From the IMG/VR virus record IMGVR_UViG_3300042691_039146, positions 1-42,818 of that record: 42,818 nucleotides of DNA. The stretch is one strand, 5' to 3'. A program made the position numbers and the translations under genes. A model generated the notes under the pieces. It was not told the origin of the DNA, did not search any database, and saw nothing but the letters and a program-made list of their open reading frames with translations. Below, piece by piece: positions 19,553 through 29,681 of this stretch (position 1 is the stretch's first letter; each line of letters opens with the position of its first letter). Origin of the DNA: a virus.

Positions 19553-20566
19553 ATGTTTGATGTATATTTTACCACCGGTTTAGGTAAAATCAATACGGGA
19601 GTAGATATTTGGGTAAATAATTGGTTGAGTGAAATAAGTAATAACTTAGACACTCAACCGGTTTTACTTATATATAGAAACAAACCCTCTGATTTTAATT
19701 TTGAAATACCAATTGAACACTATTGGTATAATGATGAGAATGGAAATCACAAAGATATTTTTGAAGAAAAATTTAATGAATGTAGAAGAGTAAATATTTT
19801 ACACGCTCATTATACTCCGTTTGAATTAATTGAGGAAAACTTAGATAAGTTATGGAGTTATGTAATTCATAATGATTTAAGTAGAGTTTATATTCAAAGT
19901 GGATTATCGGAATATGAATTTGGATGGATACCCCATTATTCTAAAGAGTGGGAAAATAAAATATTGATAAACGCAAAAAATAAAATTTGGGTAGGGTTAT
20001 ATGAATTATATGAAGATGTGTTTAATGGATATCAATCTATACCATCTTATTTTAATTTTATTCAAAATAAACCACTTTCGGAATCAAATAAAATAGGATT
20101 TACCAGTAGATGTGAAAGTAGAAAAAATCCATATTATTTAGATGGGTTGGAAGGATATATGTTTACTAATATTAGACCATTTCAAAAGACTTGGAAATTA
20201 GATAAAAATATAGACTTTTCAAAATTAAAAAAAATACAATTTGAAAGTGAATATAGTGAAAAATATTATGAGATGGATTGGGGAATTTCTCATTCCGCTT
20301 TTAATGCTGAACCATTTGGTTATTCAATATTTCAAAATGTAGATTGGGGTAAATTACCGATTTTAAGCAATGATTGGTATCCATCTATAAGTTATAAATT
20401 TAGAGCTAGTAATAAAAAGGAATTTCTAAATATTTATAAAGGTATTACAGAGTTATCATATGAAGAAAAGAAAATAGAGTTTCAAAATTTAAAAACTCAA
20501 CTCATTGATAACTTTGATAATAAGCATATTTGGAAAGAAAAATTAATAAAAATATATAATGCCTAG
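19553..20566 (+). CDS. Probable glycosyltransferase (GT-B type)
   Basis: A 337-residue soluble protein, not fibre-like in composition. Features suggesting a GT-B glycosyltransferase are an N-terminal GLGKINTGVDIWVNNWL segment (residues ~8-24, similar to the Gly-rich donor loop followed by a helix), VNILHAHYTPFEL (in the position of the HxH acceptor-side strand), IGFTSRCESRKNPYYLDGL in the middle, and FNAEPFGYSIFQN near the E-x7-E-like donor site. No TM segment is seen. It is wedged between two fibre genes (3 bp after the S74 fibre, 8-bp overlap with the Hint fibre), so the likeliest target is a virion fibre rich in Ser/Thr. The assignment is by pattern and needs a profile search; an unrelated fibre-assembly protein is the main alternative. 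Confidence 0.5.
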   Translation: MFDVYFTTGLGKINTGVDIWVNNWLSEISNNLDTQPVLLIYRNKPSDFNFEIPIEHYWYNDENGNHKDIFEEKFNECRRVNILHAHYTPFELIEENLDKLWSYVIHNDLSRVYIQSGLSEYEFGWIPHYSKEWENKILINAKNKIWVGLYELYEDVFNGYQSIPSYFNFIQNKPLSESNKIGFTSRCESRKNPYYLDGLEGYMFTNIRPFQKTWKLDKNIDFSKLKKIQFESEYSEKYYEMDWGISHSAFNAEPFGYSIFQNVDWGKLPILSNDWYPSISYKFRASNKKEFLNIYKGITELSYEEKKIEFQNLKTQLIDNFDNKHIWKEKLIKIYNA

Positions 20567-21845
20567 AACATCTGGAGATACCCTATCGTTAAATAGTTTG
20601 CAAGGAGCAACAGGAGCTGCGGCAAAATCATTATCATCGGCTGCCGGAACAACAACTGGACCGATAGCAATGTCTCAATTTAGTATTGATTCGGTTGATT
20701 CGATTAGTGGATTTACATATGTGAAAGAATCTACTACTGAAACTTTTACGTTGGGGTTTGGAAATGCTGGAAGCCGTTTTTTAAGTAGAGTTGGTTCAGT
20801 TAGTACAAATTTTAGTTGGTCAATTGATGCACCTTCTGAATTTAGTATTCAAAGTTCAGCCCCATATAATCCAACTGTTACTGCACAGGCTATTGGTAAT
20901 TCATCAACATTAAGTGCACCTGCTGCAAGAACAATAGGAGTTAAATTTGCAGATGGATTTAATGATCATGCATCTGGATATAATGTTAATAGAACTAAAA
21001 CCGTTTATAATGTAGATGATTATGCCGGTGCTAGTGGATTGTGTTTACATTTGGATGAAGATGTTTTAATGGCAGATGGTACTACAAAAAAAGCGGGTGA
21101 TTTAGTTGAAGGTGATATAGTTCGTTCTTATTATCCTCCTCATGTTGATACTTTAACTGATTTTAATTTCTATGATTGGACATACCATACTCCAGGAGGA
21201 ATAATGGTAGATTCATATGTTAAAGATGTAGCATATACATTTGTTGATAGATGGAATATAGTAACTACTGATAGTGGTTCGGTTAGAGGTAACGGTGAAC
21301 ATCCAATGATGGTTTGGGATGTTAATGAAGAAGTTTATAAATTTAAACCATTGGGATTAGTTCAAGTAGGTGATAAATTTATTAAAGTTGCATTAGATGG
21401 TTCGATGGAAGAAGTTGAAGTTCTTACAAACGATGTTCAAAATACAACAATAGAAGTTGTTTCAATTGACGTTGAGGAAGTGGATACTTATTTAGTTAAT
21501 GGATTTGTAACACACAATAAAGGATCAAATTCATTTGCAGGATATTCTATTTCAGCTGCACCAACCGTTTCAGTTTCAACTGTAACAATCGGCGGAGAAA
21601 CTTATAGAAGATTAACTCTTTCAACAAATAGTGCGGTAACTTCACCTGGTTCAACTGCTATTTCGGCAAACTTCTCATTCGATATTCAAATTGCATCGGA
21701 TAGTGGCTTCTCAAATATATTAGTAGCACCAACTGGATTTAGTGGAACTACATATGATTATAAGAGCGGAACGGCGATTTATGCAAGAGCTAGATTAAAT
21801 TTTGCGGGATTACAAACTTCTTATGGTAGTGGTGCAACTGCTTAA
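20559..21845 (+). CDS. Fibre protein interrupted by a Hint (intein-like/BIL) domain
   Basis: A 428-residue protein. Residues 1-161 are a beta-rich virion-type segment. Residues 162-320 form a Hint domain: the nucleophile Cys162 opens block A (CLHLDEDVLMADGTTKKAGD), block B is VRGNGEHPM with His248, and the end is VDTYLVNGFVTHN with His319-Asn320. The next residue is Lys321, not Cys/Ser/Thr, so classical splicing lacks its +1 nucleophile. This is the layout of A-type bacterial intein-like domains, which can cleave at Asn or act on other nucleophiles. Residues 321-428 resume as a fibre-type beta domain. At ~159 residues the Hint part has no room for a homing endonuclease. The start codon overlaps the glycosyltransferase stop by 8 bases. 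Confidence 0.8.
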   Translation: MPRTSGDTLSLNSLQGATGAAAKSLSSAAGTTTGPIAMSQFSIDSVDSISGFTYVKESTTETFTLGFGNAGSRFLSRVGSVSTNFSWSIDAPSEFSIQSSAPYNPTVTAQAIGNSSTLSAPAARTIGVKFADGFNDHASGYNVNRTKTVYNVDDYAGASGLCLHLDEDVLMADGTTKKAGDLVEGDIVRSYYPPHVDTLTDFNFYDWTYHTPGGIMVDSYVKDVAYTFVDRWNIVTTDSGSVRGNGEHPMMVWDVNEEVYKFKPLGLVQVGDKFIKVALDGSMEEVEVLTNDVQNTTIEVVSIDVEEVDTYLVNGFVTHNKGSNSFAGYSISAAPTVSVSTVTIGGETYRRLTLSTNSAVTSPGSTAISANFSFDIQIASDSGFSNILVAPTGFSGTTYDYKSGTAIYARARLNFAGLQTSYGSGATA

Positions 21846-22268: not shown

Positions 22269-24569
22269 ATGGCAGAAAAAATTGTATCACCTGGTGTTTT
22301 TACGAGAGAAAATGACCTTTCTTTCTTACCACAAGGTATATCACAAATAGGTGCAGCGGTAGTTGGACCTACAGAAAAAGGGCCAGCATTCCTTCCTACC
22401 CTAATCCAAACACAGGCTGAATATGAGGCTATCTTTGGAACTCCTAAAGATTATTATACTGGATACGCAGTTCAGAATTATTTAAGAGATGCTGGTGCAG
22501 TAACGGTAGTAAGAGTGACTGGGGTAAATGGATATGCAAAAACGGGTTCAGCGGCTATTAAGGTAAGCAATGGTGTTACCGAAAGTATCGTTGCCGTATT
22601 ATTCCATTCTTCATCAAATTTCAGTTCTTCTATCTCATTAAGTGATAGTGGAAGTGGATTATTTGCATTGAACGTAAGTAGTAGCATTTATAGTGCGAGT
22701 GTTAAGGTAAGTTCTGATAATACAATAGATGATATTGTAGGTAGAACACCTAGTTTTGGAAAATTAGTATATGCTGATTCTTTCTTCAACTTAGATGAAG
22801 CGGGTTCACCTTTAAGTGGCTCAACTTTATCATCATTAAGTGCAAGCATTGTAACTTTGGATCCTCAGGATTTCACAGGAACAAGTGAGGCACCTGCATA
22901 TAGTGAAGCATCTACACCTTGGGTTAAATCTCAAACATATAGTGGTACTAGATATAATCTTTTCAAAATTCATACATTATCACATGGTGAAGAAGAGAAT
23001 ACAAGATATAAGATTCAAATCTCTTCAATCAAATCATCTAATGGAACTGATTTTGGAACATTCTCTTTATCGGTTAGAGGATATAGTGATACTGATAAGA
23101 GAAAGAGTGTGTTAGAACAATATAATAATTTGAACTTAGACCCTGCTTCTCCTAACTTTATTGCTAGAAGAATTGGTGACAGAAGCATTTCAATAGATGC
23201 TGCTGGTAAAATAACTGAAAATGGTAACTATTCAAATAGAAGTAAATACATTAGAATTGAAGTAGCTGAAGAAGGAACATATCCTTTAACTGCAATTCCA
23301 TTCGGACATGATAAATACACTATTCCTTATAAATTAGTAGCAGGTGCATTAAACGCATTCCCTTCAGTAGTTTTCACCAATGATTCTGCTGCAGATGGTT
23401 CAGTTTTCTCAAGTGGATTTGATTTTGATTCTGCTAATAATAAAAACTACTTAAAACCAATACCAGCTGGTGCTGCTAATGGTTCAAACAAAGTATTTGC
23501 ATTAGATGGCAGTGGTTCAAATTCAGTAACTAATGAATATAACGTAAATTTAAGTTCTGCTGAAACTACAAGTTCAACTGATATTGCTAAGAGAAACTTT
23601 GTAATTGCATTACAAGGTGGATATAAAGGTTCAGACCCTTCAAAAACTATTAATAAAGGAGTTGATATTGTTGCAAACAATACACAAGGATTTAATTGTT
23701 CAACTTCAACTTCAGAAGGTTCAGTAGCTTATGCAAAAGCATTAAATACAATTTCTAATCAGGATGAATTCGATATTAACTTATTAATAACTCCTGGTAT
23801 TGTGAGACAATATCATCCTTATGTAACAACTAAGGCAATTGATGTATGTGAAACTAGAGAAGATGTATTCTACATTGCAGATTTTGTAGGAGCAAGTGCT
23901 ACTATTGCTGAAGCAGTTGAGCAAGCAGCAGGAGAAGATACTAACTATGCTGGAACTTACTACCCTTGGGTTAAAACAATCGATGTAACTACAAATAAAT
24001 TGGTATCAGTACCACCTTCAGTATTAATGGTAGGTACATTCGCACAAAATGATAGATTAGGAGCAGAATGGTTCGCACCAGCAGGTTTGAATAGAGGTGG
24101 TATTAGTGGTGCTGTACAAGTAGTAAATAGATTAACTCAATCAGAGAGAGATACTTTATACGAAGGAAAAGTAAATCCAATTGCAACATTCCCTGGACAA
24201 GGTATTAGTGCATTTGGACAGAAAACTTTACAAGATAAAGCATCTGCATTAGATAGAATCAATGTTAGAAGATTGTTAATTAACTTGAAAAAGTTCGTTG
24301 CATCTACTTCAAGATTCTTAGTATTCGAACAAAATACTGCACAAACTAGAAGTAAATTTTTAAACACTGTAAACCCTTATTTAGAGAGTGTTCAACAAAG
24401 ACAAGGTTTATATGCGTTTAGAGTGGTTATGGATGAAACAAATAATACACCAGATGTAATTGATAGAAACATTTTAGCTGGAGCTATCTTCTTACAACCT
24501 GCAAAGACTGCTGAATTCATTACAATTGATTTCAACATTCTTCCAACAGGAGCAACATTTAATGTATAA
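22269..24569 (+). CDS. 18: Contractile tail sheath protein gp18-like
   Basis: A 766-residue T4-type tail sheath subunit, which polymerises around the tube and contracts during infection. The N-terminus SPGVFTRENDLSFLPQGISQ (residues 7-26), the next AAVVGPTEKGPAFLPTLIQT and EYEAIFGTP are diagnostic. Central residues ~90-480 are the variable, protruding part with Ser-rich loops. The conserved C-terminal core (LVSVPPSVLMVG, RLGAEWFAPAGLNRG, FPGQGISAFGQKTL, NVRRLLINLKKFV, FEQNT) begins near residue 575. It is longer than T4 gp18 (about 659 residues), the excess lying in the exposed domain. It precedes the tube gene as in T4. Confidence 0.95.
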   Translation: MAEKIVSPGVFTRENDLSFLPQGISQIGAAVVGPTEKGPAFLPTLIQTQAEYEAIFGTPKDYYTGYAVQNYLRDAGAVTVVRVTGVNGYAKTGSAAIKVSNGVTESIVAVLFHSSSNFSSSISLSDSGSGLFALNVSSSIYSASVKVSSDNTIDDIVGRTPSFGKLVYADSFFNLDEAGSPLSGSTLSSLSASIVTLDPQDFTGTSEAPAYSEASTPWVKSQTYSGTRYNLFKIHTLSHGEEENTRYKIQISSIKSSNGTDFGTFSLSVRGYSDTDKRKSVLEQYNNLNLDPASPNFIARRIGDRSISIDAAGKITENGNYSNRSKYIRIEVAEEGTYPLTAIPFGHDKYTIPYKLVAGALNAFPSVVFTNDSAADGSVFSSGFDFDSANNKNYLKPIPAGAANGSNKVFALDGSGSNSVTNEYNVNLSSAETTSSTDIAKRNFVIALQGGYKGSDPSKTINKGVDIVANNTQGFNCSTSTSEGSVAYAKALNTISNQDEFDINLLITPGIVRQYHPYVTTKAIDVCETREDVFYIADFVGASATIAEAVEQAAGEDTNYAGTYYPWVKTIDVTTNKLVSVPPSVLMVGTFAQNDRLGAEWFAPAGLNRGGISGAVQVVNRLTQSERDTLYEGKVNPIATFPGQGISAFGQKTLQDKASALDRINVRRLLINLKKFVASTSRFLVFEQNTAQTRSKFLNTVNPYLESVQQRQGLYAFRVVMDETNNTPDVIDRNILAGAIFLQPAKTAEFITIDFNILPTGATFNV

Positions 24570-24608: not shown

Positions 24609-25100
24609 ATGGCAGAAGTATTAGAATTTAATGAGATGTTCTATACGAACTTCGAACCAAAGATGAAAAACCGTTTCATCTTCGAAGTTGACGGTATCCC
24701 TTCATATTTAGTTAAGGCTGGTAACAGACCTACTATTCAATTTGAAAAGGTAACTTTGGATCACATCAATATCAAAAGACAATTGAAAGGTAAAGGAGAG
24801 TGGCAAGATTTAGAAATCACTCTTTACGACCCAATCGTTCCATCAGGAGCTCAGGCAGTAATGGAATGGGTTAGAACTTCTCATGAATCTTTGACAGGTA
24901 GAGATGGATATGCAGAGTTTTATAAAAAAGATGTAGATTTCTATATGTTAGGGCCAGTTGGTGATAAAATTGAACAATGGAAATTAAAAGGAGCATTTAT
25001 CTCTCAAGCTAACTTTGGTGAATTAGATTGGTCAAATGCTACGGATCCTGCAACAATCACTGTAACTCTTACATATGATTACGCAATTTTAGAATTCTAA
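24609..25100 (+). CDS. 19: Tail tube protein gp19-like
   Basis: A 163-residue protein, the same length as T4 gp19, forming the inner tail tube. Family features are FNEMFYTNFEPKMKNRFIFE (residues 7-26), the GIPSYLVKAGNRP loop, LDHINIKRQLKGKGEWQDLEI with the LYDPIVPSGAQAVMEWVR helix region, and a C-terminal LTYDYAILEF. It directly follows the sheath gene and is closed by a strong terminator. Confidence is high; this is the second half of the canonical gp18-gp19 pair. Confidence 0.93.
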   Translation: MAEVLEFNEMFYTNFEPKMKNRFIFEVDGIPSYLVKAGNRPTIQFEKVTLDHINIKRQLKGKGEWQDLEITLYDPIVPSGAQAVMEWVRTSHESLTGRDGYAEFYKKDVDFYMLGPVGDKIEQWKLKGAFISQANFGELDWSNATDPATITVTLTYDYAILEF

Positions 25101-25843: not shown

Positions 25844-25874
25844 TATTTAAATGAGATAGTAAATATATAAAATG

Positions 25875-25901
25875 GTAGAGAGAAATCTCTACTATTTTTT
25901 T
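25875..25901 (+). terminator. Intrinsic terminator after the wHTH cassette
   Basis: A 7-bp stem GTAGAGA/TCTCTAC (25875-25881 with 25886-25892) closed by a GAAA tetraloop and followed by seven T (25895-25901). It resembles the capsid terminator at 452, including the loop. Confidence 0.88.
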
Positions 25902-25949: not shown

Positions 25950-26711
25950 ATGCAAGAACAAAAATACGATTATCCAACGGAAGTTATAACATTGCCATCC
26001 GAAGGGAAGGTTTATCCAGAATCAAACCCTCTTTCAAAGGGAACGATTGAAATTAAGTATATGACTGCTAAAGAAGAAGAAATCTTAGCTTCACAAAACT
26101 TAATTAAAAAAGGAATAGTTTTAGATAAACTATTCGAATCAATTATAGTTGATAAGGCTATTAATCCATCTGATATCATAGTTGGTGATAAAAATGCTAT
26201 TATGTTAGCAACTAGAATTTTAGCATATGGTCCCTCATATGAAGTTGAAATTTATAATAGTAGAGATGAAAAGGAAACGGTAAAAATCGATTTATCAAAA
26301 GTTCAAACAAAAGAAATAGATACATCTGTTTTAAGAAGAGATAATCGATATAATTTCAGAACACCATCTGGATATGATTTGGTAATAAAATTATTATCAC
26401 ATGGAGATGAACAAAAGATTGATGAAGAAATCAAAGCACTTTCTAAATTTAATAAAAGTGGAGTGAGTGCTGAATTAACAACTAGATATAGATTTATCAT
26501 AGTTGAAGTGGATGGAAAATCGGATACAAAAAGTATTGTAGATTTTATTAATAACAAATTCGTAACAAGAGATACAAGAGCATTGAGAGAGTTTATAAAA
26601 ACTTTTCAACCGGATGTAGTAATGGAATACGAATACGAAGACCCAGAAAGTGGAGAAAAGGAGGTACGCCCGATTCCTATGGGCGTAGGGTTTTTTTACC
26701 CTTCCATCTAA
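25950..26711 (+). CDS. 26: Baseplate protein gp26-like (T4_baseplate family), frame-0 part
   Basis: A 253-residue protein of the T4 gp26-type baseplate family: VITLPSEGKVYPESNPLSKG (residues 10-29), the strongly conserved YMTAKEEEILASQNLIKKG, LDKLFESIIVD, DIIVGDKNAIMLATRILAYG, a KLLSHGDEQKIDEEIKAL helix and RALREFIKTFQPDVVMEYEY, ending PIPMGVGFFYPSI. I start it at the ATG at 25950, because the longer frame back to 25872 would run through the preceding terminator hairpin. The frame ends with a TAA at 26709, but the family-type C-terminal extension continues in the +1 frame. The gene lies upstream of the tape-measure protein, where tail-assembly chaperones with recoding are usual. Confidence 0.85.
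   Translation: MQEQKYDYPTEVITLPSEGKVYPESNPLSKGTIEIKYMTAKEEEILASQNLIKKGIVLDKLFESIIVDKAINPSDIIVGDKNAIMLATRILAYGPSYEVEIYNSRDEKETVKIDLSKVQTKEIDTSVLRRDNRYNFRTPSGYDLVIKLLSHGDEQKIDEEIKALSKFNKSGVSAELTTRYRFIIVEVDGKSDTKSIVDFINNKFVTRDTRALREFIKTFQPDVVMEYEYEDPESGEKEVRPIPMGVGFFYPSI
26665..26697 (+). promoter_or_regulatory. Putative recoding site: hairpin plus T7 run at the end of gp26-like gene
   Basis: A perfect 7-bp hairpin TACGCCC/GGGCGTA (26665-26671 with 26681-26687, 9-nt loop) is followed after GGG by seven T (26691-26697), read in frame 0 as ttt-ttt-t. The +1 frame becomes open only at 26689 (a TAG lies just before) and frame 0 stops at 26709-26711, so any shift must occur in 26689-26711, a window that starts at the slippery run. 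A UUU-decoding tRNA could re-pair perfectly at +1 or -2. A terminator within the gene, or RNA polymerase slippage, are the alternatives. Confidence 0.5.
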
Positions 26712-26925
26712 TTATTCCGTTTTACTACACACTCAAATTTTTGATATATGTTATTATGGAAATGGTGGATTCACTCAATCCGAAATATATAATATGCCGA
26801 TACATTTGAGAAATTTCTACTATAATAGATTAGTAGATGCAAAAAAGAAAGAAAACGAAGCTAATAACAAAGCTAAAGTATCATCAGTTCCTAAAACACC
26901 ATCTAAAGTGAGAGTTAAGAGATAA
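26689..26925 (+). CDS. Frameshift-encoded C-terminal extension of the gp26-like protein (+1 frame)
   Basis: The +1 frame is open from 26689 to the TAA at 26923-26925, about 78 codons. It encodes QIFDICYYGNGGFTQSEIYN, MPIHLRNFYYNRLVDAKKKE and a basic tail (TPSKVRVKR). The YYGNGGF...YNMP-LRNFYY pattern is the extension I associate with proteins of this baseplate family, but there is no in-frame ATG before it: the first ATG (26794) comes after the YYGNGGF part. It is therefore best read as the tail of a frameshifted gp26 product, or as the same gene broken by a single T insertion in this phage or assembly. Independent initiation at 26794 would give only a 43-residue peptide. Confidence 0.6.
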   Translation, partial: GFFTLPSNYSVLLHTQIFDICYYGNGGFTQSEIYNMPIHLRNFYYNRLVDAKKKENEANNKAKVSSVPKTPSKVRVKR

Positions 26926-26940
26926 CTCTCATTTTAGTTT
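26910..26940 (+). terminator. Intrinsic terminator after the frameshift extension
   Basis: An 8-bp perfect stem GAGAGTTA/TAACTCTC (26910-26917 with 26923-26930), a 5-nt AGAGA loop and a T-rich tail. It overlaps the stop codon of the +1 frame, supporting a real gene end at 26925. Confidence 0.72.
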
Positions 26941-26974: not shown

Positions 26975-27241
26975 ATGAAAATTTCAAAAAAAGAATCTGT
27001 ATTGTTTAAAGAAACTCATAATAAATGGTTAAACGAAAGTAATTTTTTGGCCAAATTATTTGCTATGAGAGTAAAGAGTGCAGTTGAAAATGATAAAGAT
27101 ATTCAACAGGCTGTAAAAGATGCTGATTTATCTTTAGAAAAAACTAAAAAAAGTATTGAAAGTAGATTTGATGGAGATAAAGAAGCTGTAAAAGATGCTA
27201 TTCCAAAAGATGTAAGAAAATACTTAGGGTTTGATTATTAA
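26975..27241 (+). CDS. Small helical protein upstream of tape measure, unknown function
   Basis: An 88-residue, highly charged, probably all-helical protein (FKETHNKWLNESNFLAKLFA, then MRVKSAVENDKDIQQAVKDA) with a C-terminal IPKDVRKYLGFDY. No enzymatic or membrane features are seen. It lies 16 nt upstream of the tape-measure gene and downstream of a new promoter element, so it is the first gene of the baseplate operon. Position suggests a tape-measure chaperone or a small baseplate component, but nothing in the sequence proves it. Confidence 0.55.
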   Translation: MKISKKESVLFKETHNKWLNESNFLAKLFAMRVKSAVENDKDIQQAVKDADLSLEKTKKSIESRFDGDKEAVKDAIPKDVRKYLGFDY

Positions 27242-27257
27242 AATTTAGTATCGATAA

Positions 27258-29681
27258 ATGGCAGAACACTCACACGCACATCAAGGTCAATCGCAGCAAG
27301 AGTATAATGAATTACTTAACATGACAAAATCTATGTTAGGTAAGATAAGTGACGCCATGTCAGAATTAGATGATAAAACTGATAAAAGAAATAAAAAACT
27401 TTCTACTCAAATATCACTTACAAAATCAATAATTGATAGTATTGAGAATGAAAAAGATTTGCAAGCTGCTATAAATCTTATTAATAAAAACAATGTTGTA
27501 GTATCATCTCAAAATTTTGGTGTAAATCAAAAATTGGTAAAAACCTTTTTGGCACAAAGTGATGCATTGCAGGGTATTTTAGAAAAACACAAAGCTGCGC
27601 ATAAAATATTAGAAAAAGTTTATGGAGTTGTAGATGGTGTAAAAGATAAATTTGCAGGAGTAGTAGATAATATAGCACATGGACTTCATCACATACCACT
27701 TATTGGAGGTATGTTATCCGATGTTTTTCATCCTTTTGCCGAAAAAACCAAAAGAATGTTTGGTATTGTAGCCGAAAAATTTAAAATGGGGTTTGGAAGA
27801 GCATTTTTAGATGGTATTAAAAATGGACAAACTTTTCAAAAATCGGTTATTAGTGGTATAGGAGGAGGATTTAAATCTGCAGCCGGAATGGCGGCTAGAT
27901 TAGCGGGTATGTTAGGGCCAGTCGGAATAGCTATAATTGGAATAGGAGCGGCTTTATCAATTGGCTTTGCAAGATTCCACGCAATCGAAGAAGCTGCACA
28001 TGACTTTAAAACTACAACTGGTTTAGCTGCTGCTGATATTCATGATATCGAACATACCGTTCAGGGTGTAAGTAATAAATTTGGTTATTTAGGAGCTAGT
28101 GTAGCGGATGTATCAAAATACATGTCGGATTTTACTGAAGCGTTTGAGGGAACAGTTATTCCCGCTGAAAGTACTGTGGCATCGATTGCTGTATTAAATA
28201 AGAACTTCGGAGTTACTGCAAAATCGGCAGGAGAGGTAAATAAACTATTCCAAAATATGGGTGGTTTAAGTGAAGACCAGGCTCAATATTTAGCTAATTC
28301 AGTAGTAGAAATGTCTGCAATGGTAGGTGTTTCTCCTGAAAGAGTAATGAAAGATATGGCTGATAATGCCGGAGAAGCATATGAATTCTTTAGAGGTTCT
28401 CCGGAAGAATTGGCAAAGGCAGCCGTTTATGCAGCTAAAATGGGTTCTTCGATTAAAGATATGACGGCAAGTGCTAATAAATTGCTTGATTTCGAAGAAA
28501 GTATTTCTAAAGAATTAGAAGCATCTGCTTTATTAGGAACTAATTTAGATTTTTCAAAAGCAAGAGAATTAGCATATACCGGAGATTTATTGGGAATGCA
28601 AAAAGAGCTAACAAAAGAATTAGCGAATGTAGGTGATATAAATAAATTATCTTCATATGAAAAGCAGGCATTAGTTGATGCGACCGGACAGGAATTAGAT
28701 ACTTTATTGAATACCCAAAGAATTTACAATCAGTTTGGTGAATTAGATGAAGAAAGATTAGCTGCGGCAAACGCATTGATTGAGAGTGGTAAAGATATAT
28801 CAAAAGTTGGTAGAGATGAGTTAGAGGCTCAAACTGCTAGAATGGCAAAGCAACAAAAAATGCAGGATATGATGGGAGGTATTAGTGAAAGATTATCTGC
28901 AATAGGCACTGCATTTTCTGATTTATTTGCTCCAATAGGAAGTTTTTTAGTAATGGGATTATTTCAGGCCGTTAAATTGATAGCAGGATTATTAATACCA
29001 ACTCTTCAATTTGTTGGTTCTCTTATTAAAACTGTATTTTCTCCAATAGGATATTTGTTTGAAACTGTAAAAGCATTAGTGAATGAAGGGTTTGGTGGAA
29101 TGGTGAAAAAATTACAAGAAATGGGACCTATAATGGCTACCATTGTTGGATTAGTTGGCACATTAGCAGCAATATGGGTTATCAGTATTTTACCTACTGT
29201 AATAGCAACCGTATCTTCTTTGGCTATTGGATTATTGGGAGCATTATTTGCAGGTATTGCAGCCGTATGGACTTTTGCAGCAGGATTGATAACATCTGCT
29301 ATTGCTGCAATTAGTACAATGTCGGCTTTAACATTAGGTATCGGTGCAATTGCTATTATTGGGGGTATTGCAGCAGGAGCAGCGGCAATGAATAGTCAAA
29401 CTGAAGGTGCTACTACAAAAGCTGAAAGTGTACAGGATGGGGTTATTTCTCCAGGTGGTAGTGTAATTTCTACTTCTCCGGATGATTATTTAATAGCTAC
29501 TAAAAATCCTGGAACATTGGCAGAAACTGTTAGTCAAGGAGGAGGAACTTCTATGGAAGGTGTGATTGCGGAATTAAGAGAACTAAAAGCGGCATTTATG
29601 GCAAATAGAAATGTTTACATAGATGGTCAGGCTGTTACATCAAAAATTGCAAGTGTTGCAAGTAAAAACCCGGTAACCTAA
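27258..29681 (+). CDS. Tape-measure / baseplate hub protein (gp29-like role)
   Basis: An 807-residue protein with the architecture of tape-measure proteins: a His-rich start (HSHAHQGQSQQEY), a helical N-terminal third (MSELDDKTDKRNKKLSTQIS), a first hydrophobic segment at residues ~219-240 (GPVGIAIIGIGAALSIGF), a helical Ala-rich middle, and a long hydrophobic block at residues ~620-710 (GLVGTLAAIWVISILPTVIA, then more Ala/Gly/Ile-rich stretches) that could insert in the host inner membrane during DNA entry. The length of such proteins sets tail length. It is larger than T4 gp29 (about 590 residues). Gene position, between the gp26-type gene and the baseplate hub genes, agrees with this reading. 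Confidence 0.75.
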   Translation: MAEHSHAHQGQSQQEYNELLNMTKSMLGKISDAMSELDDKTDKRNKKLSTQISLTKSIIDSIENEKDLQAAINLINKNNVVVSSQNFGVNQKLVKTFLAQSDALQGILEKHKAAHKILEKVYGVVDGVKDKFAGVVDNIAHGLHHIPLIGGMLSDVFHPFAEKTKRMFGIVAEKFKMGFGRAFLDGIKNGQTFQKSVISGIGGGFKSAAGMAARLAGMLGPVGIAIIGIGAALSIGFARFHAIEEAAHDFKTTTGLAAADIHDIEHTVQGVSNKFGYLGASVADVSKYMSDFTEAFEGTVIPAESTVASIAVLNKNFGVTAKSAGEVNKLFQNMGGLSEDQAQYLANSVVEMSAMVGVSPERVMKDMADNAGEAYEFFRGSPEELAKAAVYAAKMGSSIKDMTASANKLLDFEESISKELEASALLGTNLDFSKARELAYTGDLLGMQKELTKELANVGDINKLSSYEKQALVDATGQELDTLLNTQRIYNQFGELDEERLAAANALIESGKDISKVGRDELEAQTARMAKQQKMQDMMGGISERLSAIGTAFSDLFAPIGSFLVMGLFQAVKLIAGLLIPTLQFVGSLIKTVFSPIGYLFETVKALVNEGFGGMVKKLQEMGPIMATIVGLVGTLAAIWVISILPTVIATVSSLAIGLLGALFAGIAAVWTFAAGLITSAIAAISTMSALTLGIGAIAIIGGIAAGAAAMNSQTEGATTKAESVQDGVISPGGSVISTSPDDYLIATKNPGTLAETVSQGGGTSMEGVIAELRELKAAFMANRNVYIDGQAVTSKIASVASKNPVT

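Follow-up and report, generated by a model that had tools for sequence, protein, structure and literature searches.

The window, that is, the whole stretch of viral DNA that was analysed (42,818 nt), carries a T4-like tail module. Downstream of the sheath and tail tube genes it contains a gene of the T4 gp26/gp51 family, in which a second, overlapping frame continues past the stop codon, and then the tape-measure gene (Table 1). The order of tube, chaperone and tape measure was likewise found in immuto, SP-15 and LIS04, and the proximity to the tape-measure gene had already been recognized when the DNA was read without searches. Neither PHROGs nor Pfam matched the small ORF in front of the tape-measure gene; Mel-JY01 has a similarly sized ORF at the equivalent position. 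The ORF at 20559–21845 encodes a repetitive, structural-looking protein, within which a stretch resembling a small intein or other Hint domain (CLHLDEDVLMADGTTKKAGDLVEGDIV ... VDTYLVNGFVTHN) was spotted by eye. This stretch had no match in Pfam or PHROGs.

Table 1. Features of the tail module and of the predicted frameshift site in the window.
Feature	Position	Strand	Evidence or remark
Sheath gene	22269–24569		phrog_23, E 1e-74
Tail tube gene	24609–25100	+	phrog_4542, E 2e-28
Two small ORFs			between tail tube gene and chaperone gene
Frame-0 gene, predicted short form of tail assembly chaperone (T4 gp26/gp51 family)	25950–26711	+	253 aa; phrog_150, E 5e-11; relatives match PF12322; HK97 fold neighbour
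GGAGG, SD-like element	26660–26664	+	starts 31 nt before the T run; infrequent in the rest of the gene
Hairpin between GGAGG and slip site	26665–26687	+	8 pairs (one G-U), loop of 7, leaving GGG; −11.4 kcal/mol; z −2.45
Putative slip site TTTTTTT (0 frame TTT TTT TAC)	26691–26697	+	probable +1 slip of P-site tRNA-Phe; non-T7 sites of relatives keep +1 re-pairing
+1-frame extension, predicted to supply the C-terminal domain of a long product of about 324 aa	26698–26925	+	75 codons and stop; conserved; homologous to −1-frame domains and the C-terminus of gp51
Terminator-like stem overlapping the +1 stop	26903–26937	+	15 pairs, 4 of them G-C
Small ORF between chaperone gene and tape measure	26975–27241
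Tape-measure gene	27258–29681	+	weak phrog_5493 and phrog_1293 matches, E about 1e-3; position after chaperone gene

Frame 0 started at the ATG at 25950 and stopped at the TAA at 26709–26711; its product ended in GVGFFYPSI, and its last codons were TTT TTT TAC CCT TCC ATC TAA. The +1 frame opened at 26689, after a TAG at 26686–26688, and closed at the TAA at 26923–26925. All of these coordinates, including the frame-0 end with FFYPSI and the extent of the +1 frame, agreed with those of the sequence-only reading. Its statements that the +1 segment has no upstream ATG of its own and that a terminator overlaps the +1 stop were also correct. The start-codon scan detected no ATG, GTG or TTG in the +1 frame of the window upstream of the ATG of NMPIHLR, which lies in the middle of the domain, and folding of 26890–26935 gave a z of −4.7. 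A strong terminator-like stem of 13 pairs (25869–25898) was seen immediately 5′ of the chaperone gene, and thus the gene is flanked on both sides by terminator-like stems.

Relatives of the gene were collected by a protein search of viral contigs (80 loci) and a profile search (at least 80 more), and further loci came from additional seeds and named phages. From these, 187 loci with a complete frame 0 were clustered at 85% into 101 representatives. A 0-frame stop and a conserved +1 extension reaching about 60–111 codons past this stop were found in 97 of the 101. The stop fell directly after a Phe-Phe motif, or after Leu-Phe or Phe-Leu in a few representatives. Isolate genomes with this split arrangement included those of Flavobacterium phage immuto, Mel-JY01, SP-15 and RM378, and a search of bacterial genome contigs with the protein of locus L087 found no relative. 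The dN/dS of the +1 segment ranged from 0.05 to 0.22 (15 pairs, some with saturated synonymous sites) and matched the range of the rest of the gene, which indicates that the +1 segment is under purifying selection.

The T run was conserved together with the two frames. TTTTTTT (T7) was present in 87 of the 101 representatives, followed by GG, AC or AT, and the remainder of these genes had few runs of this kind (5 in 68 kb). At the Phe-Phe sites the second codon was TTT in 93 of 93 cases, compared with 77% in the remainder of the gene. Treating the representatives as independent gives a P of about 2e-11; they are related, so that the P values overstate independence. The codon preceding the run ended in G or C in 98% of the representatives, compared with 16% in the gene body, and therefore the run length is held at seven. 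A programmed frameshift at the T7, for which the sequence-only reading had proposed a comparison of homologues as a test, was supported by conservation across many lineages: both frames were kept in 97 of 101 representatives, the run in 87, and the hairpin in most of the T7-type ones.

The sites without T7 were informative about the direction of the shift. They read TTC TTT TGG (L087 group), TTC TTT TAC (L182), AAC TTT CTA (L004), TTC TTT CGT (GXN1), CTG TTT CGC (BRock), TTT TTT CAC (SP-15) and TTT CTT TGG (immuto). At each of them UUU is followed by U or C, and therefore tRNA-Phe remains cognate after a +1 step. The site of LIS04 (TTT TTT AGT) was consistent with +1 at the first UUU. The P-site codon can thus re-pair at +1 on UUU UUU U and is cognate in every variant site seen, and the A-site codons were all sense codons (UGG, UAC, UAU, CUA, CGU, CGC, CAC, and AGU). 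Two directions, +1 or −2, had been allowed when the site was first noticed, of which +1 is much likelier. A −2 ribosomal shift at the T7 would give the same C-terminal domain with one extra residue; the run permits perfect −2 re-pairing of UUU, the sites of SP-15, LIS04 and immuto are by themselves compatible with −2, and phage Mu uses such a shift (PMC5009743). However, at TTC TTT TGG, TTC TTT TAC, AAC TTT CTA, TTC TTT CGT and CTG TTT CGC the tRNA-Phe would face UCU, ACU or UGU after −2, whereas +1 gives UUU or UUC. A −2 shift therefore seems improbable.

Still less probable is transcriptional slippage on the T7, in which mixed mRNAs, some with one U lost, would yield both forms by ordinary translation. 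A homopolymer of conserved length would suit such a process, but a run of seven is short for efficient transcriptional slippage. The arrangement was moreover kept where there is no long run, at TTTCTTTGG, TTTCTATTC, TTCTTTCGT and CTGTTTCGC, and the GGAGG and hairpin described below are better suited to a ribosomal signal.

The C-terminal domain did have a start of its own in a few relatives. In L097 and L102 it had an ATG right after the stop, and the run was lost (TTC TTG and TTC CTT, respectively); in L006 it was started by a TAATG overlap. These loci, together with T4 gene 26, which is annotated with a second, shorter product (26′), lend some support to the explanation that the +1 segment of the window is a separate protein, made by an internal start or by reinitiation at a non-standard start past the 0-frame stop. 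Against this, the window has no ATG, GTG or TTG before mid-domain, no conserved start codon was found in the +1 frame of the relatives, where start positions were scattered, and both the Phe-Phe slip motif and the exact T7 would be left unexplained. We regard a separate protein as very unlikely. Across the loci, the slippery run was kept where the C-domain lacks such a start.

A sequencing error at an error-prone homopolymer, or a one-base disabling mutation in this genome, which the sequence-only reading had named as the null explanation, has a negligible probability and was refuted by the relatives: the same split occurred in 97 of 101 representatives, from many metagenomes and from isolates, none of the 187 loci examined had six T and a single continuous frame, and the identical T7 and 0-frame stop were present in the four loci nearest to the window (95% identity), each from a different metagenome, which excludes a single extra T in one assembly.

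Upstream of the run, the sequence-only reading had reported a perfect 7-bp hairpin. The hairpin was found, with 8 pairs of which one is G-U, and the other half of the signal, the GGAGG, had been missed. The GGAGG started exactly 31 nt before the run in 68 of the 87 T7-type representatives and 28 nt before it in 7, and its frequency elsewhere in the gene was 0.016 per 50 nt. Codon −10 was GAG in 76 of 87 and GAA in 1, although the gene-wide preference GAA:GAG was 1245:194, and codon −11 ended in G or C in 89% despite its variable residue. Some clade members without T7 had a GGAGG near the same place (L004, L182, immuto, and L087), and it was still present in L102, though the shift is not needed there. 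It was absent in the distant phages of Firmicutes and Actinobacteria.

Roughly 26 nt between the GGAGG and the T7 folded as a hairpin in most representatives, with stem sequences that differed by clade (TACGCCC/GGGCGTA, ATCCC/GGGAT, and ATTCC/GGAAT). The hairpin energy was below the mean of synonymous recodings in 82% of the representatives (mean −6.0 vs. −3.8 kcal/mol), compared with 37–53% in control windows; under a null of local codon usage the 82% shrank to 72%. Third positions of Ile and Gly codons on opposite sides of the stem were Watson-Crick paired in 39 of 72 representatives, against 20 expected (relatedness uncorrected). Taken as comparative evidence, these patterns give good support to a cis-acting signal upstream of the T run that is constrained at the nucleotide level beyond coding needs.

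Two other roles for the GGAGG were considered and rejected. Its pairing with a downstream CUUCC, seen in the minimum-energy fold of the window, was not general, and many GGAGG clades had CCTGAC or CCTACC instead. As an ordinary SD for an internal start it was not followed by a conserved start codon at a suitable distance. A downstream stimulatory structure was not convincing (mean z −1.0, with 9 of 44 below −2; −0.67 downstream in the window).

The gene was assigned to the gp26/gp51 family by its phrog_150 match, which was also obtained for 45 of 46 relatives, whereas PF12322 was matched by 33 of 46 relatives, the window protein itself being below threshold. T4 gp26 and gp51 are both members of phrog_150 and PF12322. 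The frame-0 part and the extension were modelled separately. In the AlphaFold2 model of the frame-0 protein (pLDDT 90), the best PDB neighbour was the HK97 tail assembly chaperone 2OB9, with a Z of 5.1 over 81 residues (next entry 3.5), a modest value, as a Z under 8 is not decisive; the match concerns the predicted N-terminal fold. Foldseek with this model gave only E-values above 1, and its top hits by E-value, PAI-1 serpins, were rejected as noise (TM-scores near 0.09). The fold match, though modest, agrees with gene order and family. The most fitting name for the gene is a tail assembly chaperone, within the T4 gp26/gp51 family. Of the earlier label, a gp26-type baseplate gene, the gp26-type part stood, but a tail assembly chaperone describes the gene better than a structural baseplate gene.

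The extension was modelled as three helices (pLDDT 80). Its relationship to known domains was traced through T4-like phages in which the second frame is −1. In cyanophage S-PM2, SAR11 phage HTVC008M and rhizobial phage phiM12, a further stretch lying in a different frame was matched by the C-terminal part of the phrog_150 profile, and inspection revealed the same Phe-Phe motif followed by a −1-frame domain (e.g., YSLAEIENMMPWERAVYVSLL in S-PM2). A similar −1 arrangement was found in KVP40 (L211), PA5oct (L194), Atu_ph07 (L193) and L107, and a U UUU UUY heptamer stood at the Phe-Phe position in all seven of these loci (L107, L193, L194, L207 of S-PM2, L208 of HTVC008M, L210 of phiM12, and L211). 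The −1-frame domains matched the gp51 C-terminus (E 5e-9), and in a profile comparison the +1 domain of the window clade matched the pooled set of −1-frame and gp51 C-domains (E 2e-8, 95%). The profile of the +1 segment was not significant against gp51 alone and became so only via the −1-type intermediates; in the fused products the phrog_150 match was not extended over the C-domain. The distant +1 extensions of Bacillus SP-15, Listeria LIS04, Streptococcus GXN1, Streptomyces BRock and Rhodothermus RM378 matched those of the window clade as a set, and that of SP-15 also did so on its own (E about 1e-6). As the C-domain is in the −1 frame in some relatives and in the +1 frame here, the same gene appears to be shifted in opposite ways in different lineages.

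Family membership and the homology of the extension to a domain that is in the −1 frame in other phages and in frame in gp51 thus identify a chaperone with a long form that very likely arises from programmed +1 frameshifting. By comparison among the loci, we infer the slippage and its frequency, the chaperone role and the way in which the upstream element acts, whereas the conservation, the selection, the family, the homology of the extension and the constraint on the upstream nucleotides were observed. We hold it highly probable that frame 0 of this gp26/gp51-family chaperone yields the short form, that a minority +1 slip at UUU UUU U yields the long form, and that the upstream element probably stimulates the slip. 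Most ribosomes would keep to frame 0 and terminate at 26711, which would produce the short form of 253 aa. A minority would slip when the P-site peptidyl-tRNA-Phe moves ahead by one base and pairs again with UUU; ACC would then be read next, and translation would go on to 26925, adding the conserved helical C-terminal domain. By analogy with lambda gpG/gpGT, the short form would serve to coat the tape-measure protein, and recruitment of tail-tube subunits would fall to the long form. The GGAGG and the intervening hairpin probably promote the slip via mRNA strain behind the P site, much as the SD-like sequence of prfB does.

How the upstream element might act can be stated more precisely, with less confidence. 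Linearly, the GGAGG ends 26 nt upstream of the run, and SD pairing works only if the hairpin shortens this path. When the hairpin is discounted, in the window clade only GGG is left between the GGAGG and the first UUU, which places the GGAGG 3 nt from the slip codon. The spacing left over was longer in other clades, and the bridging idea is therefore offered as a hypothesis. We speculate, and the proposal may well fail, that this is a new type of +1 stimulator, in which a hairpin behind the ribosome would draw a GGAGG located 26 nt upstream close to the P site. It would amount to a hairpin-bridged prfB signal with an effective spacing of 3 nt in the window clade and a sense A-site codon, used in a large T4-like clade that includes at least one Flavobacterium phage, and lineages of one gene would have reached a two-form chaperone by +1 shift, −1 shift, separate start or gene duplication. 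In Flavobacterium, anti-SD pairing otherwise matters little.

Pieces of the +1 extension were already annotated in public genomes as small hypothetical proteins in the same frame: L002 3851–3961 (immuto35A_232), L190 2311–2430 (SP15_046), L189 1998–2174 (Rm378p030), and L003 2749–2985. Annotation that is unaware of frameshifts overlooks the long form or reports part of it as a small hypothetical gene. In this family the terminal Phe-Phe motif would serve as a direct marker of the shift site, and the homologous genes allow testing of what decides between +1 and −1.

The G/GT shift has been described as conserved in long-tailed phages "except T4" (Atkins and others, 2016; PMC5009743), and chaperone genes are known to shift by −1 in lambda and P2, by −2 in Mu and very likely by +1 in HSTV-2 (PMC5009743). 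As in lambda gpG/gpGT, the gene in the window lies between tail tube and tape measure, a short product would be accompanied by a longer one through a shift near the 3′ end, and the predicted N-terminal fold is nearest, by a modest match, to the HK97 chaperone; as in G/GT recoding generally, the overlapping downstream frame has no start of its own and is conserved with the slip site (97 of 101 representatives). Unlike lambda gpG/gpGT, the protein belongs to the T4 gp26/gp51 family, has about 250 aa, and has a predicted +1 shift at UUU UUU U with a GGAGG and a hairpin upstream.

The sequence-only reading had expected that recoding in a gp26-type gene would be a new example. This was not wholly so: a passage of PMC12846349 that cites Vladimirov (2022) describes poly-T −1 signals for the TAC-N genes of T4-like phages, and several T4-like phages with −1 arrangements were found here. 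The −1-type phages S-PM2, HTVC008M, phiM12, KVP40, PA5oct and Atu_ph07 have a homologous gene, the same Phe-Phe position and a homologous C-domain, but they have U UUU UUY and the domain in the −1 frame, in contrast to the +1 frame of the window. What is new here is the upstream element of GGAGG and hairpin; the open-licence texts searched contained no +1 version that has it.

The closest parallel for the element is prfB, in which a P-site tRNA also slips +1 onto UUU with an SD-like sequence upstream. The prfB site of F. johnsoniae is AGGAGG UAU CUU UGA, with a 3-nt spacer (PMC8710568), and UUU-U as a +1 site has a precedent in prfB of some low-GC bacteria (PMC12421855). In contrast to prfB, 26 nt that include a hairpin separate the GGAGG of the window from the run, a sense codon (UAC or UGG) takes the place of UGA in the A site, and no autoregulation is implied.

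With T4 the gene shares its family, through the phrog_150 and PF12322 membership of both gp26 and gp51, and with gp51 a C-terminal domain, which is in frame in gp51 and to which the +1 extension is related through −1-type intermediates. T4 differs in that its short and long forms are encoded by two genes, whereas the window has a single gene in which the frame changes; a passage of PMC10885494 citing Vladimirov (2022) mentions that some T4-like phages have distinct TAC genes, one short and one long. As a large, mostly uncultured branch keeps the single-gene shift, the gp26/gp51 pair of T4 can be seen as a different way of meeting the same need.
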